Source: Phycisphaerae bacterium
GTDB taxonomy: Bacteria; Planctomycetota; Phycisphaerae; Sedimentisphaerales; Anaerobacaceae
Direction of reading: 5' to 3'
Assembly: GCA_030604525.1 (NCBI GenBank)
Contig: JAUVVQ010000003.1
Span: 1 to 64,000 of the forward strand
Length of the DNA stretch: 64,000 nucleotides
The position numbers and the translations under genes were made by a program. This document shows positions 37,096 to 63,784 of this stretch, piece by piece (position 1 is the first letter of the stretch; each line of letters opens with the position of its first letter). A model generated the notes under the pieces. It worked only from the letters and a program-made list of their open reading frames with translations, had not been told where the DNA came from and did no database searches.

Positions 37096-37130
37096 TTTTT
37101 GACTCCTTTATAGTGATAGCGTAAACGATT

Positions 37131-38198: not shown

Positions 38199-38206
38199 TT
38201 GTTTTT

Positions 38207-39646: not shown

Positions 39647-39672
39647 ACTATGCACCCTTAAATAATTCAGAA

Positions 39673-40446: not shown

Positions 40447-40479
40447 AGCTAAATCCTTCATAAATTACAATATTCTTAT

Positions 40480-43305: not shown

Positions 43306-43374
43306 TCTTTGCCTTCCTTTTTATCTATATGTTAAAGTTCTAATAAACAGTCAGTTTAAATCACCACCTTGATT

Positions 43375-44676: not shown

Positions 44677-44731
44677 TATTTACCTCCGAAAAATGAGTAT
44701 CTGATATTTCCCGTTTACACGGTTAAAAAGC

Positions 44732-45571: not shown

Positions 45572-45773
45572 GTCTTGTCCTTTAGCAGAGAGGCCCGCTA
45601 CGCCCCTCGCTCTTATCCGGGATTTCCCATATAACATTGTATATCATAGCTCAGCTATGCCGCTGGGCCTCTTTTCTAATAGAATATCAAATCTGTCCTG
45701 AATGGCATCCATAGTCCATATAATACAATAATCTTACTTTTTGCACAGATTTAGTTGGGAAATACGGGAGTAT

Positions 45774-46766
45774 TTATTTATCAAATGCGGAATCGAAAGC
45801 GAGTTTTGAAGGTTTGAAATCCACATTTTTTACGAACTCACAGGCTTCTTCTGCCCCGTGCTCTCGGTCCATACCGCTGTCTTCCCACTCGACGGAAAGC
45901 GGCCCGTCGTATCCGATTTGGTTTAAGGTTCTTATGATTTCCTCGAAATCAACTCCGCCGTGACCAAGAGAGCGGAAATCCCAGCCGCGGTCCGGCTCTC
46001 CGAAATCCAGATGGCTGCTGAGAATCCCCGTTCGACCATCAAGCTGCAAACCAGCATCCTTCATATGCACATGGTATATACGCTCAGGGAATTCCTTCAG
46101 AAAACAAACAGGGTCAACCATCTGCCAGTACAAATGGCTGGGGTCAAAGTTAAAGCCGAAAGCCTTGCGATTATCAACCGCTTGAAGCGCACGTTTTGCG
46201 GTTATAAGGTCGAAGGCAATCTCGGTGGGATGAACTTCGAGAGCAAACTTTACGCCGCACTCATCAAAAACATCGAGAATAGGATTCCACATCTTTGCAA
46301 AATACTTGAAACCATCGTCAATCATTTTCCCCGGTATCGGGGGAAAGGAGTACAACATATGCCAGATGGACGAGCCGGTGAAACCGGAAACAACTTCGAT
46401 TCCGAGATTCTTCGCCGTTCGGGCGCTGTCCTTCATCGCCTTGACAGCCCATTGGCGTTTCTTCTCCGCCTCGCCCTTACAATCATCCGGAGCAAAGGCA
46501 TCGGAACGCTCATCCGTATTCGGGTCGCAGACAAGCTGGCCAGCCAGATGGTTGCTAATGGTAAAAACCTTTAAATGATTCTTTTCCAGGATTTCCAACT
46601 GCTTTTGGCAGTAATCCTTATCCTCGGCTCCTTTTTGAACGTCCATATGGTCACCCCAGCAGGCCAATTCCAGACCGTCATATCCCCAGCTCGATGCTTT
46701 TTTTGCCAATTTTTCCAGCGGCAAATCAGCCCATTGTCCCGTAAATAAAGTTACTTCTCTTGCCAT
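45774..46766 (-). CDS. Sugar phosphate isomerase/epimerase family protein
   Basis: Protein of 330 residues, cytoplasmic (no signal). TIM barrel of the xylose-isomerase-like/AP-endonuclease-2 family: [28 protein letters not shown] (Glu and His ligands), [24 protein letters not shown] and [11 protein letters not shown]. Such enzymes isomerise keto-sugars or act on 3-keto intermediates and are regular partners of Gfo/Idh dehydrogenases. RBS AAGGGG lies 5 bases before ATG. Confidence 0.9.
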
Positions 46767-46867
46767 TTTTAGCCCCTTCTTAATGAACTTCGAATGATTT
46801 AGTTGCTCAACAGATAACCTTCATAAAGCTTTTACCTTTTTCAATTTTAAATTTATAATCGGATACA

Positions 46868-48982
46868 TCATCTTAACTCAGAAAGGATTTGCCGGTGCGC
46901 TCCCTGCTTATAGATTGATTTCATTTTCCAGGCCTTCACCTCCTTGACTTTAAGATCGCGGTCTTTAGTGAACAAGCTGATGTTCGGATGCTCACGGATG
47001 TGTTCATGGGTAACGGCCGCTGCCTGGCGTTCGTTGGCAAATACTTCGAGGATGTTTTTATCTATAAATACTCGTAATCTCAGATTCTCGCCTTCCTTAA
47101 GTTCGAATGGAGGTTTAATCGAGCCGAGGTTGAAAGTATTCATACCTGACCCAAACATAATGCGTATTGCGTTATTGTTGTTCTCATCGCCCAACAGGTT
47201 TATACCAAATGCTTTGGGTAACGGAGCGCTGAAGGTTACTTTCAATTCAACCGCATCACCAGTGATTTTATTAAGCTTATAGTCGCTGTCGCTTTTGACA
47301 GTGATATTCTTTTCTATCATCTCATCATATCGAAGCGTCTCTAATTCCCGAAGTGGTCTGATCCGAAGAACACCGTCATCCGGCAATTCCAGTTCACGGG
47401 GTAGTGCCTGAATACCCGTTGGCATAAGTTTTGTAATAAGCCATGTCCACATGACGCGGCGGCCATCCTTTGTAAGCATAGATTCGGGGGCAAAATAGAC
47501 CAAACCTCCATCACCACCCTCCCATTCAGTAGTTCGGAAGTTCATCATTGTATGAGATTCAGGCAAATATTTTTCGTCTTTGAAGTCGCCGAGATAATAA
47601 CGGCATCCCAATCGGTGACTGATACAAAGAAGCATCCACTTGTTCCCGATTTTGAACATGTTGGCACAGGAGATATCTTCATCCCGGGGTATGCCGGGTT
47701 CTCCTGAATAATCTTCATGCAGGAGGTCGCCCATAAATATCCAGTTTTTAAGGTCATTTGATTTCATCAATTGGGGATTCCTACCGCCGGAAAGGGCATA
47801 GTATGTCTCACCATTTAACCAGCAGTCAGGGTCCCAGTGACGCATCTTGGGCTCATTCCCGGCATCGTCTTTGGGGATTATCGCCTCTGGCTTCGTCCAG
47901 TTATCCATATTGTCGTCAAGGGCATATGCCACCCAGTTTCTGTCCGATCCCTGGCCGTGGTAGATCATTGCCGCTTTGCCCTCTTTCGTGAAGAATCCCG
48001 TCCCGCTGAACATGCCGTGGCCTGTAATTGGAGGGGCAAGCACAGTCGGATGCCATCTCCAGTGCACCATGTCTTTGCTGGAGACATGGGCATAGTTGTA
48101 ACCATAAACATTGGCATAGATATAATGCAAATGATAACGACCTTTATAATAGAATGCCGGATTAGGATCTCCTGGCACAGCCCTCCCGGGACCGGGGTGT
48201 GCGAGGTGGTACGTCAGCCAGTTTTCCGGTGGATTTTGAGGCCATTGAGGTGTTTCGGGGACATACTTTCTTGTAGATATCAGGCGGCTATAGAGGCCCA
48301 GGATCAACTTACCATCCTCCAGCTCGATATTCTCTTCCTCTCCGCGGTTGTTAAAAACATATCTTCCGGCATGATCTACTATTTCCTCTCCTTCAAAGTC
48401 CCACCATGCATAGGGTTTTATTTTTGACGGTTTATTGGGCTGCATATCCCTGAGCTCATCAACGGAAAGGGCGCTGTCGTAGATACGTGCATCCTCAATT
48501 TCAACAGAGACAAAACCTTCACCACCATAATAGCTCAGACCAAAGACAACAAAATTACTGTTACTGTTCAGGATATCAATATTGTGTGCTGGGTATTTGC
48601 TGTAAAGTTCACCGTTGCGGTATATGCGAATTTCAGAACCTTCATAGACGACGGCCATTTGAACCATCTTCCCGGAGCGAGCTGTTTCCGGCTTGATATT
48701 ACTCAGGTCTTTCTGTGTTCGCTTTAATTCGTCACTGCCGGCTATCCATTTACCGCCACCTTTCCTGGATAAAATGATACCGTCGAATTGGCTGCCATCC
48801 TGAATGGTAAGTATGGACCCGCTATTAGAACTCCTGTTATTAAGATTGACCCATGAAACGAGTGTTTTATCGGTGCCTGCAGCATGAACGGCACTGGCCA
48901 TCATTAAAAGCAGACATAAAACAAGTATTTTATTCATACATTTCAAGATATTATTAAATGGACTACTATGCTTTGAATTCAT
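46868..48982 (-). CDS. Secreted GH32-like protein with LamG-type N-terminal domain
   Basis: Protein of 704 residues; ATG 48982 has GGAGG 6 bases upstream, giving a signal peptide with a long n-region (ends AVHA, ~35). Residues ~40-215 are a concanavalin/LamG-like module. Residues ~240-560 form the five-bladed GH32/GH43 propeller: nucleophile region VPGDPNPAFYYKGRYHLHY, YAHVSSKDMVHWRWHP, MFSGTGFF and the transition-state motif RHWDPDCWL. The C-terminal beta-sandwich ends LEVFANERQAAAVT. The usual acid/base motif ECPD is here ISCANMF, so the catalytic Glu is lacking at the expected site. Possibly a fructan hydrolase with altered chemistry, or a binding protein. Confidence 0.82.
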   Translation of the reverse strand: MNSKHSSPFNNILKCMNKILVLCLLLMMASAVHAAGTDKTLVSWVNLNNRSSNSGSILTIQDGSQFDGIILSRKGGGKWIAGSDELKRTQKDLSNIKPETARSGKMVQMAVVYEGSEIRIYRNGELYSKYPAHNIDILNSNSNFVVFGLSYYGGEGFVSVEIEDARIYDSALSVDELRDMQPNKPSKIKPYAWWDFEGEEIVDHAGRYVFNNRGEEENIELEDGKLILGLYSRLISTRKYVPETPQWPQNPPENWLTYHLAHPGPGRAVPGDPNPAFYYKGRYHLHYIYANVYGYNYAHVSSKDMVHWRWHPTVLAPPITGHGMFSGTGFFTKEGKAAMIYHGQGSDRNWVAYALDDNMDNWTKPEAIIPKDDAGNEPKMRHWDPDCWLNGETYYALSGGRNPQLMKSNDLKNWIFMGDLLHEDYSGEPGIPRDEDISCANMFKIGNKWMLLCISHRLGCRYYLGDFKDEKYLPESHTMMNFRTTEWEGGDGGLVYFAPESMLTKDGRRVMWTWLITKLMPTGIQALPRELELPDDGVLRIRPLRELETLRYDEMIEKNITVKSDSDYKLNKITGDAVELKVTFSAPLPKAFGINLLGDENNNNAIRIMFGSGMNTFNLGSIKPPFELKEGENLRLRVFIDKNILEVFANERQAAAVTHEHIREHPNISLFTKDRDLKVKEVKAWKMKSIYKQGAHRQILSELR

Positions 48983-49013
48983 ATCTGGCCTCCATTAATT
49001 AGGATTATAAATA

Positions 49014-50657
49014 TTACCACGGATTAGAAGGATACATCTTCCAGGCATCAAATACCGGAATCTCAATCTTGCATCCCTTACTAAATAAAACTATGCCTTG
49101 ACTATCATCGCGACTCGGGTATATCCGATGGGTTAAGCAAAGACGTTTATTCACAAAAATCTCCATAACGGACCGGTCCAAAAAAATATGAAGATGAAGT
49201 AATTCATTCGGTTTTAGTTCAAATTCCGCTTCCTGTTTATAGCGATGCCGTCTATAAAACCAATCCATCAGACTTTTATCCAACGAGGTCCTGGATAAAT
49301 CAACACGAACGAGGTTTTTCTTCGAATCATAAATGATGGTTGTCTGTTCGGACCCATCCGGCGCACAGCAAACCTTAACACCAAATTCTTCTGCATCTTG
49401 TGGGGAAATGGCAATATCTAACTCCAGGGTGTTTCCTTTGATATCATCAATTCTTAATTCTGAATTTTTAACGGAAAGATTCTTTTTTTGGACATGCTCT
49501 GCTCTCAGGGCTCTAAGTTCTTCAACAGGTTCCATATTTAGAACGCCATTTTTACCCAAACTGAGCATTCGTGGCAGCGTCATCGTCCCGCACCAGCCGT
49601 GCTTTGTAATGAATGTATCGGCCTGGCCCCAATGGGTCCGGCTGTCGTTCAGCGCAGCCCACATAATTCTGCGCCCTTTATCATCTAATAGACTTTCCGG
49701 TGCATAACCAACACCGCTGCCCCAACTCATTGTTCCGTGTTTTTCGGGATAGAATTGCTCGTTTTTGAAATCTCCGATAAAATATTCAAGGCCGTCGCCT
49801 AAATATAGAAGAACATACTTATCTGCGAGTTTGAAAAAATCAGGGCAATCCAGATGTCCGCTCACTCCATCATGATGAAAAAAATCACCCAAGAATTCCC
49901 AGTTTTCAAGGTCTTTTGATTTCCAAAGTGTAGTTCGCTTAGATGGCCATGAACCATTGTCACCTGAAATGGAGTAATATGTATCACCATCAAGCCAGGC
50001 GTGCGGGTCCCAGACATCATATTTCCCGTACTCTGGCAGCTTGTCTAATATTGACCTGAATTCTGCTCCATCATTGTCCTGTACAAATTCAGGATAAGGA
50101 ATTACGGGATTAGACTTTGACTTTTCCCAATGATCTAAATTGTCATCGGTCGTCTTGGCAATACAATTCCCCGCACCTAATCCCTGATACATAATTGTAG
50201 GGACTCCATCTTTATCTATGAATGCATTGCCGCTGTAAATTGCAACTTCAGGATCACCATCTTCCGGTTTCAATGCAGTAGGGTGAAAACGCCAGTGAAC
50301 CAAATCGTGACTTGAAATATGCGCCCAGCAGTCTCCCCTGTGTCCTTTCCGCGGCTTATATTGCTGGAAGATATAGAACAGATGATACCTGCCCTTCCAG
50401 TAAATAGCACCGTTAGGGTCGAAAGGATGGGCAATCCCTTCCGGTATTACGAAATGATATGTCGGCCGGTACTTATCATTGAGCAATTTATCGCGATAGA
50501 GATGCATTGAATAAACGTAATCTTGAATAACTCTTGTGTTGAAATCGTCATCCCCGGCAAGCACCTTTCCCCCAGGATTAAATCCCAAAGTAGCTGCACC
50601 TGCAGAGACAAGAAATGATTTTTTAAGGAAACCGCGTCGATTCATCTCTTCGGCCAT
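49014..50657 (-). CDS. Tat-exported GH32-like glycoside hydrolase
   Basis: Protein of 547 residues. Tat signal NRRGFLKKSFLVSAGAATLG. GH32 propeller: nucleophile AHPFDPNGAIYWKGRYHLFY, AHISSHDLVHWRFHPTAL, YSGNAF, VWDPHAWLDGDTYY and the acid/base region HLDCPDFFKL, in which Asp replaces the canonical Glu of ECPD. The C-terminal sandwich has LDRSVMEIFVNKRLCLT. Paralogue of the neighbouring gene at 46868-48982 but without the LamG module and with a Tat rather than a Sec signal. Probably acts on fructan- or fructoside-like sugars; specificity unproven. Confidence 0.85.
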   Translation of the reverse strand: MAEEMNRRGFLKKSFLVSAGAATLGFNPGGKVLAGDDDFNTRVIQDYVYSMHLYRDKLLNDKYRPTYHFVIPEGIAHPFDPNGAIYWKGRYHLFYIFQQYKPRKGHRGDCWAHISSHDLVHWRFHPTALKPEDGDPEVAIYSGNAFIDKDGVPTIMYQGLGAGNCIAKTTDDNLDHWEKSKSNPVIPYPEFVQDNDGAEFRSILDKLPEYGKYDVWDPHAWLDGDTYYSISGDNGSWPSKRTTLWKSKDLENWEFLGDFFHHDGVSGHLDCPDFFKLADKYVLLYLGDGLEYFIGDFKNEQFYPEKHGTMSWGSGVGYAPESLLDDKGRRIMWAALNDSRTHWGQADTFITKHGWCGTMTLPRMLSLGKNGVLNMEPVEELRALRAEHVQKKNLSVKNSELRIDDIKGNTLELDIAISPQDAEEFGVKVCCAPDGSEQTTIIYDSKKNLVRVDLSRTSLDKSLMDWFYRRHRYKQEAEFELKPNELLHLHIFLDRSVMEIFVNKRLCLTHRIYPSRDDSQGIVLFSKGCKIEIPVFDAWKMYPSNPW

Positions 50658-50694
50658 TTTAAACTTTCGTAATCAATATGTATTAGCAGTGCGA

Positions 50695-51867
50695 TTACTT
50701 TTTCATCTTTGTCCATTTCTGCTTACTCTTTGCACTGGTCAAAAAAGTATCAATAAAAAGCATACCGCGAAGCCCGTCATCAACGGTCGGGAAATCCAGC
50801 GCCAGTTTGTCGGGCTTTTTGCGTGTCATTCTGGCACGAATGGTATCTGCAAAATTGTGGTAAACATTAGCCATTGCCTCAAAAAATGCCTCCGGATGGC
50901 CGGATGGTAATCGCGTGGCACGTCCGGCGGCAGGACTTTTCTCGGCTACATAGTCGTTTCCACGACACCAGGTCTGCACCGGTCCATCCGGCTCTTTTAC
51001 ATAAAGATAATTCGGATTTTCCTGGTGCCACTCAAGCCCTTTGCGGTCGCCGTAAATCCAAATAGCCAGACCGTTTTCTTCACCGATAGAAACCTGGCTC
51101 GAATGAAGAACTCCCTTCGCACCATTATTGTATCGAATCAAACAGTTTCCATCGTCTTCGAGTTTTCTGCCTTTAACAAATGTGGTAAGGTCCGCACAAA
51201 TATGTGTCATCTTCAAAGCTGTGATATACTCTGCCAGATTCTCGGCGTGAGTCCCGATGTCACCTATGCAGCCGGAAGCGCCGCTTTGCTTCGGGTCTGT
51301 TCGCCACGCCGCCTGCTGCTGACCGGTCTTCTCCAAAGCCGAGGAAAGCCAGCCCTGGGGATACTGAACGATGACTTTGCGTATCCTGCCGATTTCTCCA
51401 TTTCCAACTATGTCACGAGCCAGCTTGACCATTGGATAACCCGTGTAGTTATGCATCAGGGCAAAAACCTTCCGAGAGTTTTTGACAATCTTTCGCAGCT
51501 GCCTTGCCTCTTTCACAGTGAACGTCATCGGCTTTTCACACATTACATTGAAACCCGCCTTGAGAAAATCCCGTGCGATGGGAAAATGCCAGTTGTTCGG
51601 CGTGGTAACAGAAACGAAATCAATTCGTTCATCCTTGGCCAGTTTCAACTCGCGCTCAATCATCTCGTGGTAATTGCGGTATACACGTTTTGGATTGAGA
51701 AAAAGCTGCCGACCCATTTGCTTGGATTTACGCGGGTTAATGTCGAATGCACCTGCCGTCAGTTCGATTTGACCATCCATAACAGCCGCCTTGCGGTGCA
51801 CCTCGCCAATAAACGCTCCAGGCCCCCCGCCAACCATTCCCATTTTCAACTTCCGGTTTAACGCCAT
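50695..51867 (-). CDS. Gfo/Idh/MocA family dehydrogenase (cytoplasmic)
   Basis: About 390 residues from the ATG at 51867 (GGAAGG 9 bases upstream); in-frame ATG 51873 sits only 3 bases from that site. Rossmann motif MGMVGGGPGAFIG, catalytic NVMCEKPMTFT, substrate domain with GCIGDIGTHAENLAEYIT. No export signal. First gene of the minus-strand sugar series, divergent from the glycosyltransferase at 52099, with a 230-base gap that must hold the promoters of both. Confidence 0.9.
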   Translation of the reverse strand: MALNRKLKMGMVGGGPGAFIGEVHRKAAVMDGQIELTAGAFDINPRKSKQMGRQLFLNPKRVYRNYHEMIERELKLAKDERIDFVSVTTPNNWHFPIARDFLKAGFNVMCEKPMTFTVKEARQLRKIVKNSRKVFALMHNYTGYPMVKLARDIVGNGEIGRIRKVIVQYPQGWLSSALEKTGQQQAAWRTDPKQSGASGCIGDIGTHAENLAEYITALKMTHICADLTTFVKGRKLEDDGNCLIRYNNGAKGVLHSSQVSIGEENGLAIWIYGDRKGLEWHQENPNYLYVKEPDGPVQTWCRGNDYVAEKSPAAGRATRLPSGHPEAFFEAMANVYHNFADTIRARMTRKKPDKLALDFPTVDDGLRGMLFIDTFLTSAKSKQKWTKMKK

Positions 51868-52098
51868 AATCATATACCTTCCGAAAACTGAGACCAAAGT
51901 TAATTTTTAAAGTGCGATTTCCTGCCGATTGTTTAAAAAAACAGGAGAACAAATGATAATTTCGTTGTCCGGCTTTGTCAACAAAATGAAAAAAATAATT
52001 TACCGAACTGGAAAAAGTATGTTCTGTCGGATAAACTTTAGAAAATGCATTATTTAAGTTTTCGACAGCTTTGCGCCGAATGAATTCCGGAAAGGCCA

Positions 52099-52830: not shown

Positions 52831-53802
52831 TTAATTTTCAACTAAACCGATTTGCTGCCATGGGCCAAAGTAAAGAATTTTGTCAGGGGCATGTTCGGTT
52901 ATAACAGCTGCTATGGTCCGGGGGTTTTCCTGACAGTATTTTTCAATTTCATTATGATTCATTACCATAAAAGCAGTAGAAAGGGCATCGGCCATTGCGG
53001 CAGTTTCAGCACATGCCCATGCTGCCATTTTTGCCTGAACGGGGTGAGCAGTTCGCGGGTCAATGATATGCTGACCTTTTTGCAGGCCTGATATGCTCAA
53101 GGAACGGTTGGCTAAAAGAAGCTTTGATGGGCTTTTTCCAGGAGCCATAGGATTCGATATGTTTACAGGCCATCCTTTCTTTCCAGCCGGGGCGGTTAGT
53201 GCCAAGAGTGTACTGAAACCTCCATGTATTAAAGCTTTCTCAATGCTCCAATCCTGGAGAAGACGGGCTATCTGGTCGAGTGCATAACCTTTACCTATGC
53301 CGCCGAGGTCAATCTGTATTTTTTCTCCCTGAAGTTTAACAGTGTATTCTTCAGGGTCGAGCTCCAGCAGTCGGATTCCGGTATTTTTGCGAGCGAATGT
53401 TAATTGGGCTTCTGATGGTTTTCGGTTTTTTCCTCTTTCATCCAGCCGGCAATCGTAAAGAAGGCCGATGGTGACATCAAAGGAGCCATTTGTCTGGGAG
53501 TAAATATTTTTTGCTATGCTTAGACATTCGAATACCGGCAGTCCTATCCGTGCAATTTCTCCACGGGAGAGATTGTTAATTTTCGATATATCACTGTTTT
53601 CAATATAGCGGCTGAGCTGCTGTTCGAGACTATCCAGTTCATCAAAAGCAGCGATGGCTGCTCTTTTGGCGTAATCCGATTCATCACTCTGAATGATGAT
53701 TTCAAAAGTGGTCGCCATTGCATCATGTGAAAATTTACACAAGCTGGGCATAGAAACCGCAGGGCTTTTAACAAACTCTTTATTATTTTCAAAATCCGTC
53801 AT
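52831..53802 (-). CDS. apbE: FAD:protein FMN transferase (ApbE)
   Basis: Protein of 323 residues that attaches FMN covalently to threonine of target proteins such as RnfG/NqrC. Key segments: HDAMATTFEIIIQ, KIQIDLGGIGKGYALDQI, ALIHGGFSTLLALTA, HIIDPRTAHPV and AAMADALSTAFMVM. No signal peptide or lipobox is seen, although most bacterial ApbE proteins are periplasmic lipoproteins, so it either works in the cytoplasm or is exported unusually. Its ATG overlaps the stop of the upstream Agl23-like gene by 4 bases, so the two are coupled. Confidence 0.92.
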   Translation of the reverse strand: MTDFENNKEFVKSPAVSMPSLCKFSHDAMATTFEIIIQSDESDYAKRAAIAAFDELDSLEQQLSRYIENSDISKINNLSRGEIARIGLPVFECLSIAKNIYSQTNGSFDVTIGLLYDCRLDERGKNRKPSEAQLTFARKNTGIRLLELDPEEYTVKLQGEKIQIDLGGIGKGYALDQIARLLQDWSIEKALIHGGFSTLLALTAPAGKKGWPVNISNPMAPGKSPSKLLLANRSLSISGLQKGQHIIDPRTAHPVQAKMAAWACAETAAMADALSTAFMVMNHNEIEKYCQENPRTIAAVITEHAPDKILYFGPWQQIGLVEN

Positions 53803-55418
53803 CTTTGTAACTCAGCATCTTTCAGACTCGACGGTGTTTGATTTTGCTGCATTCGGTCAAATAAATCTTTCGTGACAAAACCAATCAATTCAACCGTTGG
53901 TCTCAATTCCATACGCCTTTTGAAAAGAGAAACGTACAGCTTTTTTTTACCCGGCTCAGGAAGTTCATATAACTTTTCCAATATTTTTCGTTCAAATTCC
54001 TTAGAGGCAATAATAACCGGAACTGCGGGCATATCTTCTTCAACTTTACTCTGGTAAGCCACTCCTGTAAAGTCTCTCAAATACCAGGGTAAAGGCCAGT
54101 AATCATCCTCCCGACAAATTACCTGGATGTACATTTTTCCCCCCTCCGGATGTGAGGAAGCTGCCTGTTCTATTCGCCTGGTTATTTCAAAGACGTCCTC
54201 GCTGGTATGAGCATAAACATAGGGATTGCATGAATCAGCATAAAAATAAAAACTGCCCGCATAGGCCTGTGCAACCAGTGCGCACACACCACCAACTAAA
54301 ACAAAAGCAACAACTGCCCTTCTCCACATTGTATTTGCAATTGTCATAAAAACCGCTATGCCAACCCCTGCCAATATAATCATACCATGCAAAAAGCCGA
54401 GCATCGACCAGGGTGTTTTATAAGGTATTGCCGAATAAATAATAGTCATTATCAATGTGTAAAAAGCAAAGAATCGAAGTAGTCCTGGATCGAAATCTTT
54501 GATATATCTTTTGGACCAGACAAATAAAAAACCAAAACAAGCCAACATTATGATAAACGCTTCGCTCCAGGCCGGCCCCGAACCTATTCTGAAATACAAG
54601 AGCATCTTCAGATAATAATACCAGTGATGTATATGAATCTGATTATGAGCAGCTTTATCTAAATAAAATTTATAAGCCCTAAACGAATCCAGTATGCCAG
54701 CTGGATTCTTAAGAAACGATGAATAGAACAAAGCCGATACCGCAAAAGCAGTCAGCAAAATGGTGAGTATATGTAAATAGTTTATCTCTTTGGCCAAAGA
54801 GGATATTATGCTTTTTCCCCTTTTTTGTATAAACACGGCCAGTAACAATGCCAGCAACATAGAACCGAAAGCAATAACGCACGTTTCCTTGGTTGCATGC
54901 GCTAATCCCATAAAAATTCCCGTTAGAATAGCCCATTTAATATCTTTTGAGCGGATATAACGGTAACTTGAGAGGATTACTCCAAAGCTGAAAGAAACAA
55001 GAAGCATTTCCTGAATATAATAACGGCTATAAAAAACAAAGGCAGGTGACACTGCGGTTAACAGAACGGCTGCAGAGACAGCACGGCCACCCAGGCCATC
55101 TTTCAACAACAAAATCAACAATACCAACAGAATGCCACAGAAAGCAGGGACAATGCGTAAGGTAACCTCGTTTACATCAGAAATTTTATGAGCGGAACCA
55201 AGCCAGGCTGGTATCAATGTAAGATAGTTCAGTGTTGGCCCATGAAACTCTTCGGGATTATATTTATAGGAACCTTTCTCAAGAAGGTGAGCAAATTTAA
55301 TGGCGTGTACAGCTTCGTCTGTATGCATCAGGCGCTGCTTTAAAAGGGGCAACCGCAGGGCAACTGCCAAAATTACTGCAGTAAGAATTAAAATCCAGCA
55401 TCTTTTAAAATTTCTCAT
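53799..55418 (-). CDS. Agl23-like (TIGR03663-type) multi-pass glycosyltransferase
   Basis: About 539 residues from the ATG at 55418; a TTG at 55472 would add 18 residues and overlap the upstream gene. About ten membrane spans. The GT39/PMT-type first loop is HTDEAVHAIKFAHLLEKGSYKYNPEEFHGPTL (shown here as one long motif with Asp-Glu catalytic pair near 35-37), followed by SPAFVFYSRYYIQEM and THATKET-like AHATKETCVI. These fit membrane glycosyltransferases annotated as flippase-associated Agl23. It lies between a discoidin-like lipoprotein and apbE. Confidence 0.85.
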   Translation of the reverse strand: MRNFKRCWILILTAVILAVALRLPLLKQRLMHTDEAVHAIKFAHLLEKGSYKYNPEEFHGPTLNYLTLIPAWLGSAHKISDVNEVTLRIVPAFCGILLVLLILLLKDGLGGRAVSAAVLLTAVSPAFVFYSRYYIQEMLLVSFSFGVILSSYRYIRSKDIKWAILTGIFMGLAHATKETCVIAFGSMLLALLLAVFIQKRGKSIISSLAKEINYLHILTILLTAFAVSALFYSSFLKNPAGILDSFRAYKFYLDKAAHNQIHIHHWYYYLKMLLYFRIGSGPAWSEAFIIMLACFGFLFVWSKRYIKDFDPGLLRFFAFYTLIMTIIYSAIPYKTPWSMLGFLHGMIILAGVGIAVFMTIANTMWRRAVVAFVLVGGVCALVAQAYAGSFYFYADSCNPYVYAHTSEDVFEITRRIEQAASSHPEGGKMYIQVICREDDYWPLPWYLRDFTGVAYQSKVEEDMPAVPVIIASKEFERKILEKLYELPEPGKKKLYVSLFKRRMELRPTVELIGFVTKDLFDRMQQNQTPSSLKDAELQR

Positions 55419-55446
55419 CTGGCCGGTTTGATATGGTACAAATTTT

Positions 55447-56226
55447 TCATTTTGGGGACACCTGACGCCCAAAAACCTCGACTTCTATGTAGTGGTTTAA
55501 TTCATTCGTGCTGTTTCCATTGCTGTAGAGTCGGACATAGCGGGCATGTTGACCCTTTGCGTCAATAAGCCTGCCTTCCGAGGTTTCAACATAGCTTTTA
55601 TCCTCACCTACACCAAGCGCCGAAGAATTATCAGCGTCATTATTAAATAGTGTCCTGACATTGGTCAGAAAATCAGGGTCATCAGCAACCTGAACAATAA
55701 CATCAAAATAAACCCTTACTTGTTTATGGTAGTGCCAGAGCACAATCGCATATATCTCAGACTCGACGCCAAGGTCTATGGTAATATATTGTTTGAAGGG
55801 AGCCATCTCAACATAACTGCCGTCCATAGCTTCTTTGTCTCCATCAGTGATTAATTCCAAAGTTCCGATGATGGGTTGTTCATCTGTTGCGGTTACCGAT
55901 TTCCCCAAGGCAATATTTGTTGTCCCCTCAGGCACGTAAAATGTCGGGCGGGATGTTCCCCTGCGACGAGGCTCTTCGAGATTTGTAACGCCGCGAATGT
56001 TTGAGGGAGTGCCGACAAACATCGGCCTGGGCAGTTTGATTTTCAGCGGTATCATATCCGGTTTCGGGGTATCTTTTTTGGTTTCCGCAACGCTTTGCTC
56101 AACAGTTGATTGTTCTGATTGTTCCTTAGAAGCATCCTGCGGTGATTTTTTGCAGGAAGAAACGAAGACACATAGGGCCAAAAGAACGGTTAAGCGGATA
56201 TACAGGTTTACATTAGGTCTACGCAT
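55447..56226 (-). CDS. Lipoprotein with F5/8 type C (discoidin)-like domain
   Basis: Protein of 259 residues. Signal peptide with lipobox CVFVSSC (Cys ~24), then an acidic/Ser-rich linker, then (~105-255) a galactose-binding-like beta-sandwich: NIALGKSVTATDEQPIIGTLELITDGDKEA-type opening, QYITIDLG, YAIVLWHYH, ARYVRLYSNGNS and HYIEVEVFG. These features fit a carbohydrate-binding discoidin fold anchored to a membrane. It immediately precedes, and may be co-transcribed with, the Agl23-like gene. Confidence 0.82.
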   Translation of the reverse strand: MRRPNVNLYIRLTVLLALCVFVSSCKKSPQDASKEQSEQSTVEQSVAETKKDTPKPDMIPLKIKLPRPMFVGTPSNIRGVTNLEEPRRRGTSRPTFYVPEGTTNIALGKSVTATDEQPIIGTLELITDGDKEAMDGSYVEMAPFKQYITIDLGVESEIYAIVLWHYHKQVRVYFDVIVQVADDPDFLTNVRTLFNNDADNSSALGVGEDKSYVETSEGRLIDAKGQHARYVRLYSNGNSTNELNHYIEVEVFGRQVSPK

Positions 56227-56341: not shown

Positions 56342-57700
56342 TTATTTATTCCGGTTTAAATCGACGGTTTCAGGTTCAAGTCCAAGGTCAGCGGCGATAA
56401 GATAAACAGCAAAACCGACGATAAATGACATCAGAGTAGCCAGCCCATAGGAAAAACCAATTACCGGAAGCTTACCCAGGATGCCGACCAGGAAACCGAG
56501 AACCCAGGCGATATACCCTGCCAGGTTAATACCCTTTCGGGGTCCCGACCATTTTCCGTTTCTGAGGTAATCAGCAGTCATAGCTCCAATAATCGGTCCA
56601 AAAGATGCGCCTATAACCAGGAAGAAACCCACAAGGTTATTTGCCACACCAGTAGCTGCCAGGATAATTCCGATTACACCAGCTCCCAAAGCAAGGCCCA
56701 TTCGCGGCAGCTTGGGAAAGATAGTAGAAAAGGAATTTGCTGCCAGGAAAGCGCAGAAACCTGTAGGACAGATACAGGCAATTACGAAAACCCAGAACAT
56801 CACCTTCGAGACGACCCCGCCAACTTGACCGATAGAAGCGATGAATGGTTCAAATCCCGGCATTGTGGCGATTTGCGGATTTTTACCTATGGCTCCTGCG
56901 ATTGTTAATAATGCAAAGACACCCACCACTAATGCAGGCAAGCTGATTCCAAAAAGGCCTCCAAGAACGACATCTTTTTTACTACGATTGTTCATAGCGA
57001 AATCAGCGCCGGCCGCTCCTGCTGTTGCAAAGAAACCTGCCGCCGCCTGGAGTGCGGCAAATGCACCCAAGCCCATAAGCGGAATCACGGCTGATGTAGT
57101 GTGTGGTATTGATATCGAAGAGTTAAAATTGCTGATGCCTCCTATATTTGAGAAACCTGCTATTATAATGATTAATAAAGGAAAAACAGGCAGCCAGCTT
57201 GAAAGCCATCCGAGCCAATTGATTCCCACCGCACCGACAAAAGCAAATGCCATTCCCCATATTATGCAAACGAGCCAAAATGAAGCCGACCCGGCGGCGG
57301 CATTGGAACCAATGGCATTCATAAAAAAGGATGCGGCTGAAAAAGTGAAGACTGCATGCCAGCCAATCTGAAGAACACCCATCAGCAGTCCCGGCATTAA
57401 AATGCCTCCATGCGTGCCGAAAGTGGAAGAACCAACAACGTAAAGCGGCATACCAGTCGTGAACCCCAGGATTGCAGGGACATAATACAGGACAAAACAG
57501 AACAGTGCACCGAGAAAAAGGCCCACAACGGCGGCCCATAAACTGCCGTAGTGCAATGCTGCCGCCATTCCAGCCATAAAGGGAACCGAAAGGAAAATAC
57601 CCGCATAGGATGGAGCTGTGTTTTTGTACCAGGGCGCCCGATTTTCAGGGGGGTTCGGGCGGGCCGATTTTAAATAACCCGGTAATAGTTCATTATTCAT
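56342..57700 (-). CDS. NCS1-type (cytosine permease-like) transporter
   Basis: Protein of 452 residues with about twelve membrane spans. The opening NRAPWYKNTAPSYAGIFLS and the internal GTHGGILMPGLLMGVLQIGW, FFATAGAAGADFAMN and RKGINLAGYIAW fit the NCS1 cytosine/purine permease family. In such proteins the first ~30 residues and spans 1 and 6 bind the nucleobase; I cannot tell the substrate. RBS AGGAG lies about 7 bases before ATG. A possible role in nucleobase or allantoin-like uptake has no visible support from neighbours. Confidence 0.83.
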   Translation of the reverse strand: MNNELLPGYLKSARPNPPENRAPWYKNTAPSYAGIFLSVPFMAGMAAALHYGSLWAAVVGLFLGALFCFVLYYVPAILGFTTGMPLYVVGSSTFGTHGGILMPGLLMGVLQIGWHAVFTFSAASFFMNAIGSNAAAGSASFWLVCIIWGMAFAFVGAVGINWLGWLSSWLPVFPLLIIIIAGFSNIGGISNFNSSISIPHTTSAVIPLMGLGAFAALQAAAGFFATAGAAGADFAMNNRSKKDVVLGGLFGISLPALVVGVFALLTIAGAIGKNPQIATMPGFEPFIASIGQVGGVVSKVMFWVFVIACICPTGFCAFLAANSFSTIFPKLPRMGLALGAGVIGIILAATGVANNLVGFFLVIGASFGPIIGAMTADYLRNGKWSGPRKGINLAGYIAWVLGFLVGILGKLPVIGFSYGLATLMSFIVGFAVYLIAADLGLEPETVDLNRNK

Positions 57701-58363: not shown

Positions 58364-59029
58364 CTAAACTTTTTTTGCGTTGTTAATCATCGCCAGGTAA
58401 GCAAAAGCCACTGCAATCACTGCAAATCCAAGGGCAATATAGCGATGGCAGGCCAAAAGAAATTTCTGAATATCTGTCCCGAACAATGTGAACATACTCA
58501 ATAAGATTGATAAAACAAGCGGCACCGCCAAAGACATAAGCAGCCAGAAAACCGCTCTCTGCAGCAGCTCCGCCCTGCCGCCGGATGGAACGTCTCCACT
58601 ATCCTCCGAGAACAGCTTCCTCAACAACGGACAGCAGCTCACATCTAAGCTGTTATCCTGCGCCCACAAAACCGCCAGCAGCGCAAGGCAGAACGCAAAG
58701 ACGCCCCCGAAAATAACGTGTATCATCATCCAGTAGCCGAAGATGGATTTGCCGAGAATTAAAACCGGGAAAAAGCCCGTTACAGCCAGCACCAGAAAAC
58801 AAATAACAGCCAGCGCCAGAATCAACCTTCTAATCTTCAGCAAAAAGGAGGCCTTTTGAATGGGCAAAAGCAAAGTGAAGCCAAACAGGAAAAACCTCAG
58901 GCAATCCAAGGGTTTCATTGGCCGTTCCGCCCCAAACAAATCGTCGAACGAAGGCCGACGCAGGATAAAATCCAAAACGCAACCTGCCAAAACTACCAAA
59001 CTTCCGATTATCGCAATTAGAGGAAACAT
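58364..59029 (-). CDS. Small b-type-cytochrome-like integral membrane protein
   Basis: About 221 residues from the ATG at 59029, placed one base after the stop of the cytochrome gene; an ATG at 59053 would overlap it by 23 bases. Four to six hydrophobic segments. Histidines sit within membrane segments at MMIHVIFGGVFAF and LACHRYIALGF, suggesting haem b ligation, but no known family was recognised. Coupled to the multihaem cytochrome c, it is a good candidate for a quinone-interacting membrane partner (inference). A decayed copy of its last third lies at 57723-57989. Confidence 0.62.
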   Translation of the reverse strand: MFPLIAIIGSLVVLAGCVLDFILRRPSFDDLFGAERPMKPLDCLRFFLFGFTLLLPIQKASFLLKIRRLILALAVICFLVLAVTGFFPVLILGKSIFGYWMMIHVIFGGVFAFCLALLAVLWAQDNSLDVSCCPLLRKLFSEDSGDVPSGGRAELLQRAVFWLLMSLAVPLVLSILLSMFTLFGTDIQKFLLACHRYIALGFAVIAVAFAYLAMINNAKKV

Positions 59030-59030
59030 A

Positions 59031-60932
59031 TCAACTTTGTCCTGCTTTATCATCTTCGGAAATTGACTTTGTAATATAACCGAGGGCTTTTAACCCGTAT
59101 AATAAAAGCACCGCAGCGATTATCATAGCAGCTATAACAGCTACAACTTTAAGCCATGGGCGAAACACAAAACTAAAGGCAAATAATTTCATATATCCCG
59201 GAGAAATATCCTGAAACTTAAACATACTCACATACTTTCCTCTTTCGGACCGGACGGGGGTATCGACCTCAACTTTCCCGAAGCAAAAGCCCGCTTCCGT
59301 CGAGTGACAATCCTCGCATCTCTTAGCTCCAAGCGACTGGGCGGCAGGCCGAACATTATGAGCAATAGGCCAATAATACGGCTCACCGGATTTATGCTGC
59401 TCGCCGGTCAGCTCACCTTTACCGTTAACCCGATAAAGCTTCCCTCCAGCTACGTAAACCGTTTCTGCGCTGATTTTATCCGAAAGCTGGGAAAGTATTT
59501 TCTTTATACCCTCCTTAGTCAAATCAGGCCAGTCTCCCGATGACGGCATTGACTCTTCGGTTATAACTTTTGAGGCAATTGGCCTGATTATTTCCAGATT
59601 CAGCGGAGTTACTTTGTCGCCCTCATATCGACCCCAGTATGCAAGCCAGAGGAGTTTTGCAACTCCAATCTTACCGTCTTCTCCTTCGACAAAAACCGGA
59701 TAGATTATATGCGGCAGGACATCCTTTGATTTATTGACGTTAAGGGTTCCAAGAGCATGTGCACGCGAAGTTTTTGTACGGGTAGTCTTTTCGGCAGGCC
59801 AGGGACCACAGTGACAGGCGGTACACGCAAGCTTCTCAAAATGAACCGGCGGTATTCCCTCGTGTTCGGCAATCGGAGCACCTAATCGCCCTGCTGCTGC
59901 GTCTGTGTTCTCCTGGCGGGTATGACAACTCCGGCAGGTAAGAGTACCCGCCAAAGGATTCGCAGAATCTGTCTGCTCGCCCTCATAGCCGCGAGTAATA
60001 TTATGCTCCAGACCGTTACGGTGACAATCAATACATTTCAAACCCGACTTCAGGTGAATATCCTCAACCTGAGACCATTTTTCACCCGCATAAGGATCGA
60101 AATTGGAATGGCAGAAATAACAACGGTCATTGGGGATGTTTCGAGTAATGTCAAAAAGAACCTGATTTTTGGAATCGAAGATGTTTTCACGATACACAAC
60201 TGTTGGAGGACGAAGCTCGGGATTATCGAAAGTTTCGGGCATTTTATAATCGAACGTTTCCGGCATGCCTGCCGCAGAGCCGGTAACAGTGGCTAATTCA
60301 CTGGCACCGGTTGGGGCCCAACGAAAATTCTGGCGTGCAATCTGAATCGCACATTCGGCCTGGTCCTGGCCCGGGTGAGCATTGTGACAGGCGAGACAAT
60401 TGACTTCCAGTTTCCCTGAGACAAAAGAACGCATTATCTCTTCGGGATTTTCGCTGTCGATTTGGCCCGGACCTCCGCCGGGAAAGTTCCTGCCGAAAAG
60501 CTGGGTGAATTGCCAGGTTGTAATACCAAGCTGCCGGGGTCGAAACGTCCCAGGCCAGGGTCTGTAAGAAAGAGGAATCTGTGTACAAGTCCGAGGGTCA
60601 ACATATATCCATGGCTGTCCGACCCGTCCGGGTGCTATGTCTGGGTCGAGCGCATTAAAATGCCATCCTTTTGAGATTACATCCACATTATGACAATCAG
60701 GACCGCCGCAAGTTTTAAGAGGAGAAAAAGGAAAAGCCACCTTATCAGAAGGTGTGATTTTATTACCCTCCTCATCTAAAAGAGGGATGAGATGAACGGG
60801 AACGGCACGACTGCCATCACTTTCGTCGCCTTTGAGTTTTTTGGTATCGGATGCCGCTACCGGTGAAATCAATAAAAGGGTGACTAAGACAGCTATGTAT
60901 AGATTGTTAGTCAAATTTTTGAATCCCTTCAT
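59031..60932 (-). CDS. Membrane-anchored multihaem cytochrome c
   Basis: Protein of 633 residues with a signal peptide (about 1-27, ending VAA). Haem motifs: one CX4CH (CGGPDCH, ~75) and six CXXCH (CLACH, CYFCH, CIDCH, CRSCH, CTACH, CEDCH), so about seven haems. A single transmembrane helix near the C-terminus (FRPWLKVVAVIAAMIIAAVLLL) leaves the haem domain in the periplasm. It follows a Tat-exported Gfo/Idh gene by 3 bases and precedes the membrane protein gene with an overlap/abutment. The likely role is passing electrons from periplasmic oxidation to or from the quinone pool. No named cytochrome family is assigned. Confidence 0.88.
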   Translation of the reverse strand: MKGFKNLTNNLYIAVLVTLLLISPVAASDTKKLKGDESDGSRAVPVHLIPLLDEEGNKITPSDKVAFPFSPLKTCGGPDCHNVDVISKGWHFNALDPDIAPGRVGQPWIYVDPRTCTQIPLSYRPWPGTFRPRQLGITTWQFTQLFGRNFPGGGPGQIDSENPEEIMRSFVSGKLEVNCLACHNAHPGQDQAECAIQIARQNFRWAPTGASELATVTGSAAGMPETFDYKMPETFDNPELRPPTVVYRENIFDSKNQVLFDITRNIPNDRCYFCHSNFDPYAGEKWSQVEDIHLKSGLKCIDCHRNGLEHNITRGYEGEQTDSANPLAGTLTCRSCHTRQENTDAAAGRLGAPIAEHEGIPPVHFEKLACTACHCGPWPAEKTTRTKTSRAHALGTLNVNKSKDVLPHIIYPVFVEGEDGKIGVAKLLWLAYWGRYEGDKVTPLNLEIIRPIASKVITEESMPSSGDWPDLTKEGIKKILSQLSDKISAETVYVAGGKLYRVNGKGELTGEQHKSGEPYYWPIAHNVRPAAQSLGAKRCEDCHSTEAGFCFGKVEVDTPVRSERGKYVSMFKFQDISPGYMKLFAFSFVFRPWLKVVAVIAAMIIAAVLLLYGLKALGYITKSISEDDKAGQS

Positions 60933-60935
60933 AAA

Positions 60936-62294
60936 TTAGACTTTAAAATCTTCCGGCGAGAAGTCAAGCTTTTTAGCAGCTTCGACGGCTTCATTGACCT
61001 TCAGCACCGTTACAGCCGTTTCAAAACCTACTTCAGGAGGACAATTTAGTGTCGCCTTACCACGTATGGCATTAAAGAAGTTTTCCAGGTGTGGCTGATG
61101 GAAAGGTTTGTCCATTGTAACCGGCAAATCGTATCTTGCCGCAGGTATAGACTCGCGTGCATCTACGGCGCCGGTTGTTTCGCTTGTTTGCTTTGGAGGT
61201 TCTTTTTGGAAAACATAGCCCCTCTTGACCCATGGCTGCCATTTTGTTTCCGGAACCCAATCTTCGCGATAGATACTTCCTCGATTTGAGGCTTCAGATA
61301 TTAATAATGTCCCCTCATCGCCCATAAAGGTTTCGAAATATCCCTGGCTGCTGTTTGTTGTTCCGGTTTGATAAAGTGCCCGGACAATTCCTTTATTTGT
61401 TTTGTATTCATAGATTGCCATCACATTGTCGTACCACTGGTGCTTAGTCCAGTAGTCTATGCCGCCGCCTGCTATTACAGACATAGGTGCTGTGCCCAGG
61501 TACCAGTTATAAATGTCAATCTGGTGAGAGCCAAGGTCAACGATGGGCCCGCCACCAAGGCCTTTGTACCATCGCCAGTTTCTGAACTGCTGCATAGAAT
61601 TAAAACCATACTTTTGAAGAGTTTCTGAATCAATATCGGTTCCCTTAGGCCAACCTTTATCTTCACAAGCAGCTTTGCTGCGGTTCCACTGTCCATTAAT
61701 TGTCGTGATACGGCCAAGTAGATGTGCTTCGGTAATTAATTTATCGTAGCAGAAGGTATATCTTGGATTGCTTCTTCGTTGATGCCCGATTTGCATCATT
61801 TTTCCGGATTTTTTTGCAGCTTGAACTATCTTTCGTGCCCCCTCAACTGTATTCGACATTTCTTTTTCACAGTAAACATGCAGGCCGGCCTTGAGGCATG
61901 AGACCGCATGCTCAGCGTGCCAGAAATCAGGAGTGGCGATGATTACTGCATCGAGGTCTTTTTCTTTATCGAGCATTTCAGCATAATCAGTATAAGTATT
62001 ATGTTCATGGCGATAAGCTTTTAGTCTGAGTGAGAGCCAATTTCGATTATAATCCCAGATATCGCAAACAGCTTTAAAACGAATACCGGGGATTTTCAGG
62101 CAGGAGGTTACCAGAACTTTTCCCTCAGCGCCGGCGCCTATTAAGGCAACGTTAATATCATCAGGTTTGGATGTCTGTTGTGCCAACAGCATCGGTGAAA
62201 GGACAAGGCCTGTCCCAATCGCTGCGCTTGAACGCAGGAAAGTTCGCCTGTCAATACCTGTTTTATTTTCACTACTTTTTTTGGTGTTTTTCAT
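60936..62294 (-). CDS. Tat-exported Gfo/Idh/MocA dehydrogenase, cytochrome-linked
   Basis: Protein of 452 residues. Tat signal DRRTFLRSSAAIGTGLVLSP. Nucleotide-binding IGAGAEGKVLV, catalytic HVYCEKEMSNT (EKE instead of EKP), WYKGLGGGPIVDLGSHQIDI in the substrate domain. Same subgroup as the genes at 38207 and 43375. Its stop is 3 bases from the start of the multihaem cytochrome c gene, so they are translated from one message. I infer that this enzyme's electrons feed the cytochrome; direct transfer would need a bound cofactor. Confidence 0.9.
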   Translation of the reverse strand: MKNTKKSSENKTGIDRRTFLRSSAAIGTGLVLSPMLLAQQTSKPDDINVALIGAGAEGKVLVTSCLKIPGIRFKAVCDIWDYNRNWLSLRLKAYRHEHNTYTDYAEMLDKEKDLDAVIIATPDFWHAEHAVSCLKAGLHVYCEKEMSNTVEGARKIVQAAKKSGKMMQIGHQRRSNPRYTFCYDKLITEAHLLGRITTINGQWNRSKAACEDKGWPKGTDIDSETLQKYGFNSMQQFRNWRWYKGLGGGPIVDLGSHQIDIYNWYLGTAPMSVIAGGGIDYWTKHQWYDNVMAIYEYKTNKGIVRALYQTGTTNSSQGYFETFMGDEGTLLISEASNRGSIYREDWVPETKWQPWVKRGYVFQKEPPKQTSETTGAVDARESIPAARYDLPVTMDKPFHQPHLENFFNAIRGKATLNCPPEVGFETAVTVLKVNEAVEAAKKLDFSPEDFKV

Positions 62295-62348
62295 TTCCTG
62301 TTAAGCCTCAATTTGAGATTATATCAGAATGTTTCCGTTTTGAATAAT

Positions 62349-63347
62349 TTATGCCCGCCACCTGCGGGGTCTGTTTTTGGTGGAATCCTTTGCTAATATA
62401 TTGTTAGCAATTTCAGCATCTTCAGCCACCTGAAAATCATACATTCCGACGTTGATAAAATCGGCGCCGTTTTTAAAGGCGTATTCAAAGCCATCCCAGG
62501 GTTCGATCGCACCGGCGGCGAGAACTTTATAGGCAATCCAGGGTTTTTTAACCTTTTTCATAAATTTAATAGTCTGCTCCGGCGTCATTGACCAATAATT
62601 ATCAACTTCATAGTTATCAATAACCGCTTTGTGCTGGTCTTTTCGTCTGGCGGAGAAATAATTATTAGTATGCAGGGTTTTCATATAGAAATCTACATCC
62701 AGTCCGGCAGCTTCACATGCGATAGGGACATCAAGTGAATGTCCGGCAATCCCCGCAATCAGGCCATTAGTTTTCATAAAATCTATAACTTTGCCGAGAA
62801 GCTCTACCTTCTCTTCACTTACCCAAAGGTCTCCTATGTTACCCAGGATAAAAGCACCTACGGCTCCATTGTCGATAGCTTTTTGGACGTTGGTTTTCAG
62901 GTCGTGTTTTTCAGGAGCGCATTGTGCAATGTATTGCATCTTGCCGTCTTTTTTGTTGAATTTATTAAGTATCCGGACGCCTCGCTCATCACCATCGAGA
63001 TTGCTCAATATAGCCGTGTTGATTCCGTGCTCCTGACAAATCCTGTAAGTCTCTGCTATCTTTTCATCTGTAAAGTAATGTTTCAGCAGGTCGGAGACAT
63101 AAATAAGGTCTCTGCTGTGGGCATAGCCATTGATGAGATTTCCGCCGCAGATTAATCGGCTGATTTTAACATGTCCGATTTGGCCCATAGGCATATTCTT
63201 TAAAGAAGAAATAACAGGAGCGGTTTTGGAGTCAGCCTTTTCCTGGGCTAAAAGAATTTTTTCTTCAAGACTTAAACCCGCGGCAACACCGGCAGAAACC
63301 AGGATTGTATTTTTCAGGAACTTTCGACGATTTAAATCTTTATTCAT
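62349..63347 (-). CDS. Tat-exported TIM-barrel (aldo/keto reductase-like) protein
   Basis: About 332 residues from the ATG at 63347 (GGAG 7 bases upstream; an ATG at 63359 overlaps that site). Tat signal NRRKFLKNTILVSAGVAAG. The remainder is a TIM barrel opening with KISRLICGGNLINGYAHSRD, the aldo/keto reductase-like first strand, with NTAILSNLDGDERG, GLIAGIAGHSLD and KKPWIAYKVLAAGAI. No catalytic tetrad is certain, so the reaction is unknown. First gene of the operon leading to the dehydrogenase and cytochrome. Confidence 0.75.
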   Translation of the reverse strand: MNKDLNRRKFLKNTILVSAGVAAGLSLEEKILLAQEKADSKTAPVISSLKNMPMGQIGHVKISRLICGGNLINGYAHSRDLIYVSDLLKHYFTDEKIAETYRICQEHGINTAILSNLDGDERGVRILNKFNKKDGKMQYIAQCAPEKHDLKTNVQKAIDNGAVGAFILGNIGDLWVSEEKVELLGKVIDFMKTNGLIAGIAGHSLDVPIACEAAGLDVDFYMKTLHTNNYFSARRKDQHKAVIDNYEVDNYWSMTPEQTIKFMKKVKKPWIAYKVLAAGAIEPWDGFEYAFKNGADFINVGMYDFQVAEDAEIANNILAKDSTKNRPRRWRA

Positions 63348-63359
63348 CTTTATCTCCAC

Positions 63360-63784
63360 ATCATATAACCATTTTCAGTTATTCAGGATTATAGCATGAT
63401 TTTATGATTATGTCCACTAACAGCTTGTCGGCTTTTTAACTAAACAAAGGATAATACAATTCAAACACATTTAAGTAAACTGCTATGGGTGAAACCCGTA
63501 GTAGTTTACTTTTCGAATGCGGTTCATAGCCCTGCCGGTCAGCTAATTCGCTAACGAAGTGCTTATCCTGAAGCTGGAGTTCAGCGGCGGGTAGTTTGTT
63601 TCTTGAAACGGCCAGAAATTCTGTCGAGCCAGGTTCAACACATACTCCAGCACCAAGCCCCTCCCCCACTCCTGCCTTCCAGGAAAAAAGATAAGCTTTG
63701 CTTAGCCACAGAGGCCACAGAGAAAGACAATAACAAATCGTAAAAAGTGTTGTATATTATTATTATGCTATACGTTGAATTATC
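63360..63784. other. Intergenic region with a long hairpin
   Basis: No credible gene. AAGTAAACTGCTATGGG (63473-63489) and CCCGTAGTAGTTTACTT (63495-63511) form a 17-bp stem with two imperfect pairs and a TGAAA loop. A minus-strand frame of 77 codons (63436-63669) spans it, but its peptide has no recognised family. A ccacagaggccacagag motif near 63705, a type common in intergenic DNA, follows. Possible mobile-element remnant; not proven. Confidence 0.4.

Follow-up and report, generated by a model that had tools for sequence, protein, structure and literature searches.

The first 64,000 nucleotides of contig JAUVVQ010000003.1 (hereafter the window; guanine-plus-cytosine content ~45%), from a Phycisphaerae bacterium of the order Sedimentisphaerales, contain a locus in which the genes for an exported Gfo/Idh/MocA-family dehydrogenase and a multihaem cytochrome c lie side by side. 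An earlier note, made from the sequence of this window, had described four genes here in tight order and had proposed an undescribed route in which electrons from periplasmic sugar oxidation pass through haems to quinone or an outside acceptor. Inspection of the sequence together with profile searches confirmed the four genes on the minus strand (63359-58364), with the coordinates and spacing as the note had given them. They encode, in order, a TIM-barrel-like protein with a leader of the twin-arginine translocation (Tat) type (62349..63347; leader NRRKFLK; 332 amino acids from the ATG, with an alternative GTG start at 63359), a Tat-type Gfo/Idh/MocA dehydrogenase (60936..62294; leader DRRTFLR), a heptahaem cytochrome c with a Sec-type signal and a C-terminal anchor (59031..60932), and a b561/FdnI-like cytochrome b (58364..59053; likely start at the ATG at 59029). 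The Gfo/Idh and cytochrome c genes are spaced by 3 bp, and the two cytochrome genes abut or overlap. Upstream of the first gene lies the top-scoring promoter-like site of the region, TGGACA-17-TATAAT (63388..63416, minus strand), a consensus match only, with 11 of 12 positions agreeing and an extended TG before the second hexamer.

The cytochrome c carries six CXXCH motifs and one CX4CH motif. A pattern scan located CLACH (site 2, 60384..60398), CYFCH (site 3, 60108..60122), CIDCH (site 4, 60021..60035), CRSCH (site 5, 59922..59936), CTACH (site 6, 59811..59825) and CEDCH (site 7, 59304..59318), all on the minus strand, while site 1, CGGPDCH (60690..60710), was recognized in the sequence as an in-frame variant. 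Over the whole window, the CXXCH scan returned 9 matches compared to 2.5 expected by chance, and none of 100 shuffled sequences reached 9. At the position of site 1, a five-residue CXXCH is present in 44 of 51 aligned sequences and CX3CH in four, supporting the count of seven haem sites made in the earlier note. The seven conserved sites and the Sec-type leader, recognized by eye, place the protein among the multihaem cytochromes c, and a C-terminal membrane anchor was identified by hydropathy at residues 593-615 (59088..59156), within a helix spanning residues 591-632 in the structure model. Since eight histidines outside the motifs are conserved in at least 50 of the 51 sequences, every haem could have bis-histidine (bis-His) coordination, which would suit a wire rather than an enzyme. 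A fold search with the model found no PDB match below an E value of 0.001, although Foldseek is weak on haem-packed proteins that are poor in secondary structure, and a sequence profile search of PDB gave only a 50-residue match to NrfA-type enzymes. None of the octahaem tetrathionate reductase, NrfA/ONR, DmsE or MtrC families scored over its cut-off, the best being TIGR04315 with 31 of 375 bits. The cytochrome is thus without a close relative of known structure.

The dehydrogenase belongs to the Gfo/Idh/MocA family, with both the N-terminal Rossmann domain (PF01408, 70 bits, cut-off 24, E 3.6e-19) and the C-terminal alpha/beta domain (PF22725, 42.7 bits, cut-off 27; PF02894, 42.2 bits, cut-off 22.9) scoring over the curated cut-offs. 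In an alignment of 36 relatives, the leader motif RR.F is invariant, as are K144, D253 and H257, which we take to be the catalytic Lys/Asp/His expected for this family. The residue closing the second strand, Asp78, is likewise invariant and presumably points to nicotinamide adenine dinucleotide (NAD) rather than NADP as the cofactor.

When 84,980 species genomes were scanned with a motif drawn only from the cytochrome, 226 relatives were returned, the best 80 of which were kept. According to record titles, these loci are mostly from Planctomycetota, with others from Calditrichota, KSB1, Acidobacteriota, Bacteroidota, Ignavibacteria, Neomarinimicrobiota, Verrucomicrobiota and Omnitrophota, about nine phylum-level groups in all. 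A Gfo/Idh gene was found directly upstream on the same strand, at a median gap of ~30 bp, in 63 of the 73 cytochrome loci with a visible upstream gene, compared to 124 of 833 (15%) for other genes of the same loci; because the 80 loci are those closest to the query, this frequency does not apply to all cytochrome relatives. In a phylogenetic tree, 59 of 59 adjacent Gfo/Idh proteins of suitable length fell into one clade that held only three others (support 0.946), and the other Gfo/Idh genes of the same clusters are not placed beside the cytochrome. A survey of 294 Planctomycetota genomes found this Gfo/Idh in 16 and the cytochrome in 19, with 14 genomes having both (Fisher p = 4.5e-18, in a test that counts genomes as independent, though relatives are not). 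The two genes are direct neighbours in genomes G142, G157, G209, G261, G287, G029, G050, G111 and G130, and are separated by a gene for an ApbE-family flavin transferase in G057 and G077. Distance matrices from 29 loci correlate at r 0.86 for cytochrome versus Gfo/Idh and at r 0.90 for cytochrome versus ApbE, both uncorrected for the species tree. The linkage between the Gfo/Idh and cytochrome genes is strong, and their pairing stands up to the comparison of neighbours across genomes that the earlier note had itself named.

Several results bear on what the dehydrogenase oxidizes. Its structure model has a mean predicted local distance difference test score of 87.5, and a fold search with it (best E 6e-24) returned glucuronide-3-dehydrogenase (8tdi), levoglucosan dehydrogenase (6a3g) and DgpA1 (9m3d) as the nearest folds, with NAD-dependent glycoside hydrolases (8qc2) and GFOR (1h6d) also among them. 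The GH109 enzyme 2ixa was a weak sequence match (5e-6). NF058561, the BT_2158-type glycoside 3-dehydrogenase, gave 84.2 bits over the N-terminal half against an equivalog cut-off of 750 bits, indicating a related protein but not a member. In 34 of 55 loci in which the next gene is visible, a 3-keto-disaccharide hydrolase (PF06439, a family assignment checked on three examples) lies directly upstream of the Gfo/Idh gene. Given this neighbour and the closest folds, our best guess is that the enzyme is an exported glycoside dehydrogenase that oxidizes C3, which narrows the sugar oxidation proposed in the earlier note. The substrate is less sure in the present genome because the 3-keto-disaccharide hydrolases of the window are encoded in a different sugar cluster, at a distance of 20 kb (35671-51897). 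This second cluster contains four Gfo/Idh genes, two 3-keto-disaccharide hydrolases, one of them fused to a TIM barrel, a ThuA-HEAT protein and two GH32-like proteins.

The cytochrome b gene product matched its families weakly (PF01292, 28.3 bits, cut-off 30.1; TIGR01583, 25 bits), and one of its relatives weakly matches DUF4405. Because H112 and H203 are the only histidines common to its relatives that it retains, the protein probably holds one haem b. Below this gene, after a gap of ~660 bp, the same strand encodes a CytX/NCS1-like transporter (56342..57700; TIGR02358, 33 bits, far under the cut-off), a lipoprotein with an F5/8-type C (discoidin-like) domain (55447..56226; a profile match, with the lipobox assigned by eye), an Agl23-type (TIGR03663) GT-C glycosyltransferase (53799..55472; 206.5 bits, cut-off 126; the true start is probably inside the frame) and an ApbE-family flavin mononucleotide (FMN) transferase (52831..53802) without a signal peptide, whose start overlaps the Agl23 stop codon (ATGA). 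Membership of the last in the ApbE family is supported by PF02424 (172.7 bits, cut-off 25.6) and by the stretches DLGGIGKG, HIIDP and ADALSTA. In view of the gap, this genome may transcribe the downstream half of the cluster separately. Relatives hold a Gfo/Idh gene at the position of the gap, and a tblastn search of the gap for a decayed copy gave no significant match.

Comparison of the loci indicates that the conserved module is larger than the four genes of the earlier note, and that its membership differs. The F5/8 lipoprotein, Agl23 and a dedicated ApbE belong to it; ApbE is encoded inside the cluster in more than 40 loci, and in others (L041, L044) its gene adjoins the core genes or lies between them. 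The transporter gene follows that of the cytochrome in 28 of 78 loci; it is frequent but not universal. The TIM-barrel-like gene was considered as a conserved core member and ruled out, being rare (3 matches among 81 loci). Its product had no Pfam and no PDB match, and the putative TIM-barrel assignment comes from reading the sequence only; relatives occur in 14 of the 294 Planctomycetota genomes, one adjoining the same Gfo/Idh clade (genome G145, contig C52) and others near the cytochrome (L081, L099). Agl23 and ApbE are fused in L104 (14355-16970), L118, L122, L132 and L033 (2532-5072), a puzzling pairing of a membrane glycosyltransferase with an FMN transferase. The F5/8-type lipoprotein is kept across phyla with many invariant residues, which would be unusual for a mere carbohydrate-binding accessory.

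Nicotinamide donates hydride while haems accept single electrons, and a flavin would therefore be expected between NADH and the cytochrome. Direct NADH-to-haem transfer is accordingly unsupported, and the dedicated ApbE had been overlooked in the earlier note. Elsewhere in the same genome (L167 3883-11786, contig C65), an Rnf operon in the order C-D-G-E-A-B is followed by its own exported ApbE with a membrane leader, which would leave the second ApbE free for the cytochrome cluster. The locus is best explained as the first half of a conserved module for electron transfer in the cell envelope. Judging from the enzyme family and its neighbours, the Gfo/Idh protein would fold in the cytoplasm with NAD bound, be exported by Tat and, once outside the cytoplasm, oxidize a glycoside, most likely at C3, and the 3-keto-disaccharide hydrolase would then split the resulting 3-keto glycoside. 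The dedicated ApbE would provide a protein-bound flavin that re-oxidizes the bound NADH and splits the hydride into single electrons. These may travel down the anchored cytochrome c by way of its seven bis-His haems, cross into the membrane via the one-haem cytochrome b and so reach an acceptor. The F5/8 lipoprotein and Agl23 probably serve this apparatus in docking and glycosylation. For the chain as a whole, from periplasmic glycoside 3-dehydrogenase through protein-bound flavin and haem wire to cytochrome b, we consider the chances of its being right or wrong to be about even.

A number of observations weigh against this chain. An [S/T]GA[S/T] acceptor motif marked the targets of ApbE in previous work (PMC8238504); it is not conserved in any family of the cluster, being found in 3 of 78 cytochromes at unrelated positions, in 0 of 145 Gfo/Idh proteins and in 0 of 41 F5/8 proteins, and no flavin carrier was found among these families. 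Nearly all unfused ApbE proteins of the cluster are without a signal peptide, and for this reason may act in the cytoplasm. With no conserved acceptor motif and no signal peptide on the unfused ApbE, the flavin step is offered as a hypothesis only. As for the genes themselves, those for the Gfo/Idh enzyme and the cytochrome are unlinked and far apart in G127, and unlinked also in G145, and distant cytochrome relatives (L044, L046, L047, L049-L058) do not have this Gfo/Idh as a direct neighbour, with most of L049-L058 having ApbE and another Gfo/Idh nearby. Moreover, some Gfo/Idh enzymes keep their NAD bound, work redox-neutrally and need no outlet. The dehydrogenase here might operate in this manner, in the style of GH109 or GFOR enzymes, with the cytochromes c and b, the F5/8 protein, Agl23 and ApbE constituting a separate device that shares only its regulation or substrate context. 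Such an arrangement would account for the missing flavin link and for the distant relatives that keep the cytochrome without this Gfo/Idh, and 8qc2 and 1h6d are among the nearest folds; however, the genes stay tightly adjacent in about nine phylum-level groups and the Gfo/Idh proteins form a single clade, which goes beyond what shared context usually produces, and the other Gfo/Idh genes of the same clusters do not sit beside the cytochrome. We regard it as somewhat unlikely. One candidate flavin site, the TGAS of the window's cytochrome, was dismissed since it is absent from the relatives.

If the dehydrogenase does feed the cytochromes as we propose, the identity of the acceptor is a separate matter. 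Sedimentisphaerales were described as strictly fermentative, with the respiratory chain missing, in a 2024 survey (PMC11266412). The window's guanine-plus-cytosine content is close to the 44 +/- 3% given for family UBA12454, and matches with Sedimentisphaerales in their titles likewise point to this order. Neither MqnA/D nor an above-cut-off MenD was detected in seven genomes from the order (six have 99% completeness), while the same menaquinone-pathway searches do find matches in other genomes that carry the cluster. An electron-transfer flavoprotein (ETF):quinone oxidoreductase with a ubiquinone-binding domain is nevertheless present in each of the seven, 56-61% identical to that of the window (6851-8521), where a fused ETF beta/alpha protein is also encoded (8514-10619). 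Quinone, one of the acceptors suggested in the earlier note, is thus doubtful, and candidates would include Rnf, an extracellular acceptor, and a quinone that is either scavenged or of an unknown kind. A more specific form of the proposal, in which these supposed strict fermenters have a quinone-independent outlet, with a flavin at a new, motif-less ApbE site taking the NADH electrons and the heptahaem cytochrome and cytochrome b delivering them to Rnf or an outside acceptor, appears unlikely.

Electrons could also flow the other way, with cytochromes b and c sending reducing power outward and the Gfo/Idh enzyme reducing periplasmic carbonyls such as 3-keto sugars. In favour of this, Gfo/Idh enzymes catalyse reversible reactions, and members of the order, described as fermenters (PMC11266412), would be in need of electron sinks. 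However, for most carriers the formation of NADH with electrons from haems is energetically uphill, and the neighbouring hydrolase needs a 3-keto product, which fits oxidation better, making this reversal quite improbable. Least probable by our estimate, and very much so, is that the cytochrome is a terminal reductase for nitrite, tetrathionate or similar whose neighbours only supply substrate. Parts of it weakly resemble the octahaem tetrathionate reductase and NrfA-type models, but a second histidine ligand is available for each of the seven haems, and neither a family match near its cut-off nor a PDB fold match was obtained.

The proposed module works like a cytochrome-linked sugar 3-dehydrogenase built from other parts. 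LacABC passes electrons via a c-type cytochrome subunit, and its dehydrogenase is a GMC flavoprotein. Together with a DUF1080 hydrolase, LacABC of Caulobacter and Agrobacterium carries out membrane-bound periplasmic C3 glycoside oxidation followed by 3-keto-glycoside hydrolysis (PMC9007349), much as envisaged here, although the present dehydrogenase is an NAD-type Gfo/Idh rather than a GMC protein, and seven haems, a cytochrome b and ApbE are added. The Bacteroides 3-keto-sugar locus BT2156-BT2160 likewise has a Gfo/Idh (NF058561) beside a PF06439 hydrolase; we know of no cytochrome partner for it. The Methanosarcina cytochrome MmcA, which we take TIGR04314 to represent, also has seven haems and is linked to Rnf, which the present genome has as well, but TIGR04314 scored only 24.5 bits, far under its 250-bit cut-off, the neighbourhood is different, and to our knowledge MmcA has no link to Gfo/Idh enzymes. 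In ApbE-flavinylation systems with DUF4405 or b-type cytochromes (PMC8238504, PMC11334425), ApbE is similarly found beside a small membrane cytochrome b; unlike in those systems, no FMN_bind, NqrB/RnfD, DUF2271 or DUF3570 target was recognized in the cluster, nor a conserved [S/T]GA[S/T]. A literature search, with subscription journals mostly outside its coverage, found no account of a multihaem cytochrome with a Gfo/Idh enzyme, nor of Gfo/Idh enzymes in the periplasm of Planctomycetota.

These polysaccharide-degrading bacteria have many exported Gfo/Idh enzymes, and for cases without a redox-neutral cycle we know of no established re-oxidant of the enzymes' nicotinamide outside the cytoplasm. 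The module is a concrete candidate answer to this problem, present in about nine phylum-level groups, and the linkage suggests an undescribed route by which sugars outside the cytoplasm could yield their electrons, including in bacteria presumed to live by fermentation only. It also places a conserved seven-haem carrier in an order surveyed as strictly fermentative and missing a respiratory chain (PMC11266412). The cluster ApbE, having no recognizable target, may reveal a new flavinylation site. In distant relatives of the cytochrome, we also observed that an exported protein with an FGE-sulfatase domain precedes the cytochrome (L038 32-1174; L049 8713-9900; L045 2653-3861, the last identified by eye), and that the L038 protein has a DGVSGAT motif of the kind typical of ApbE targets.

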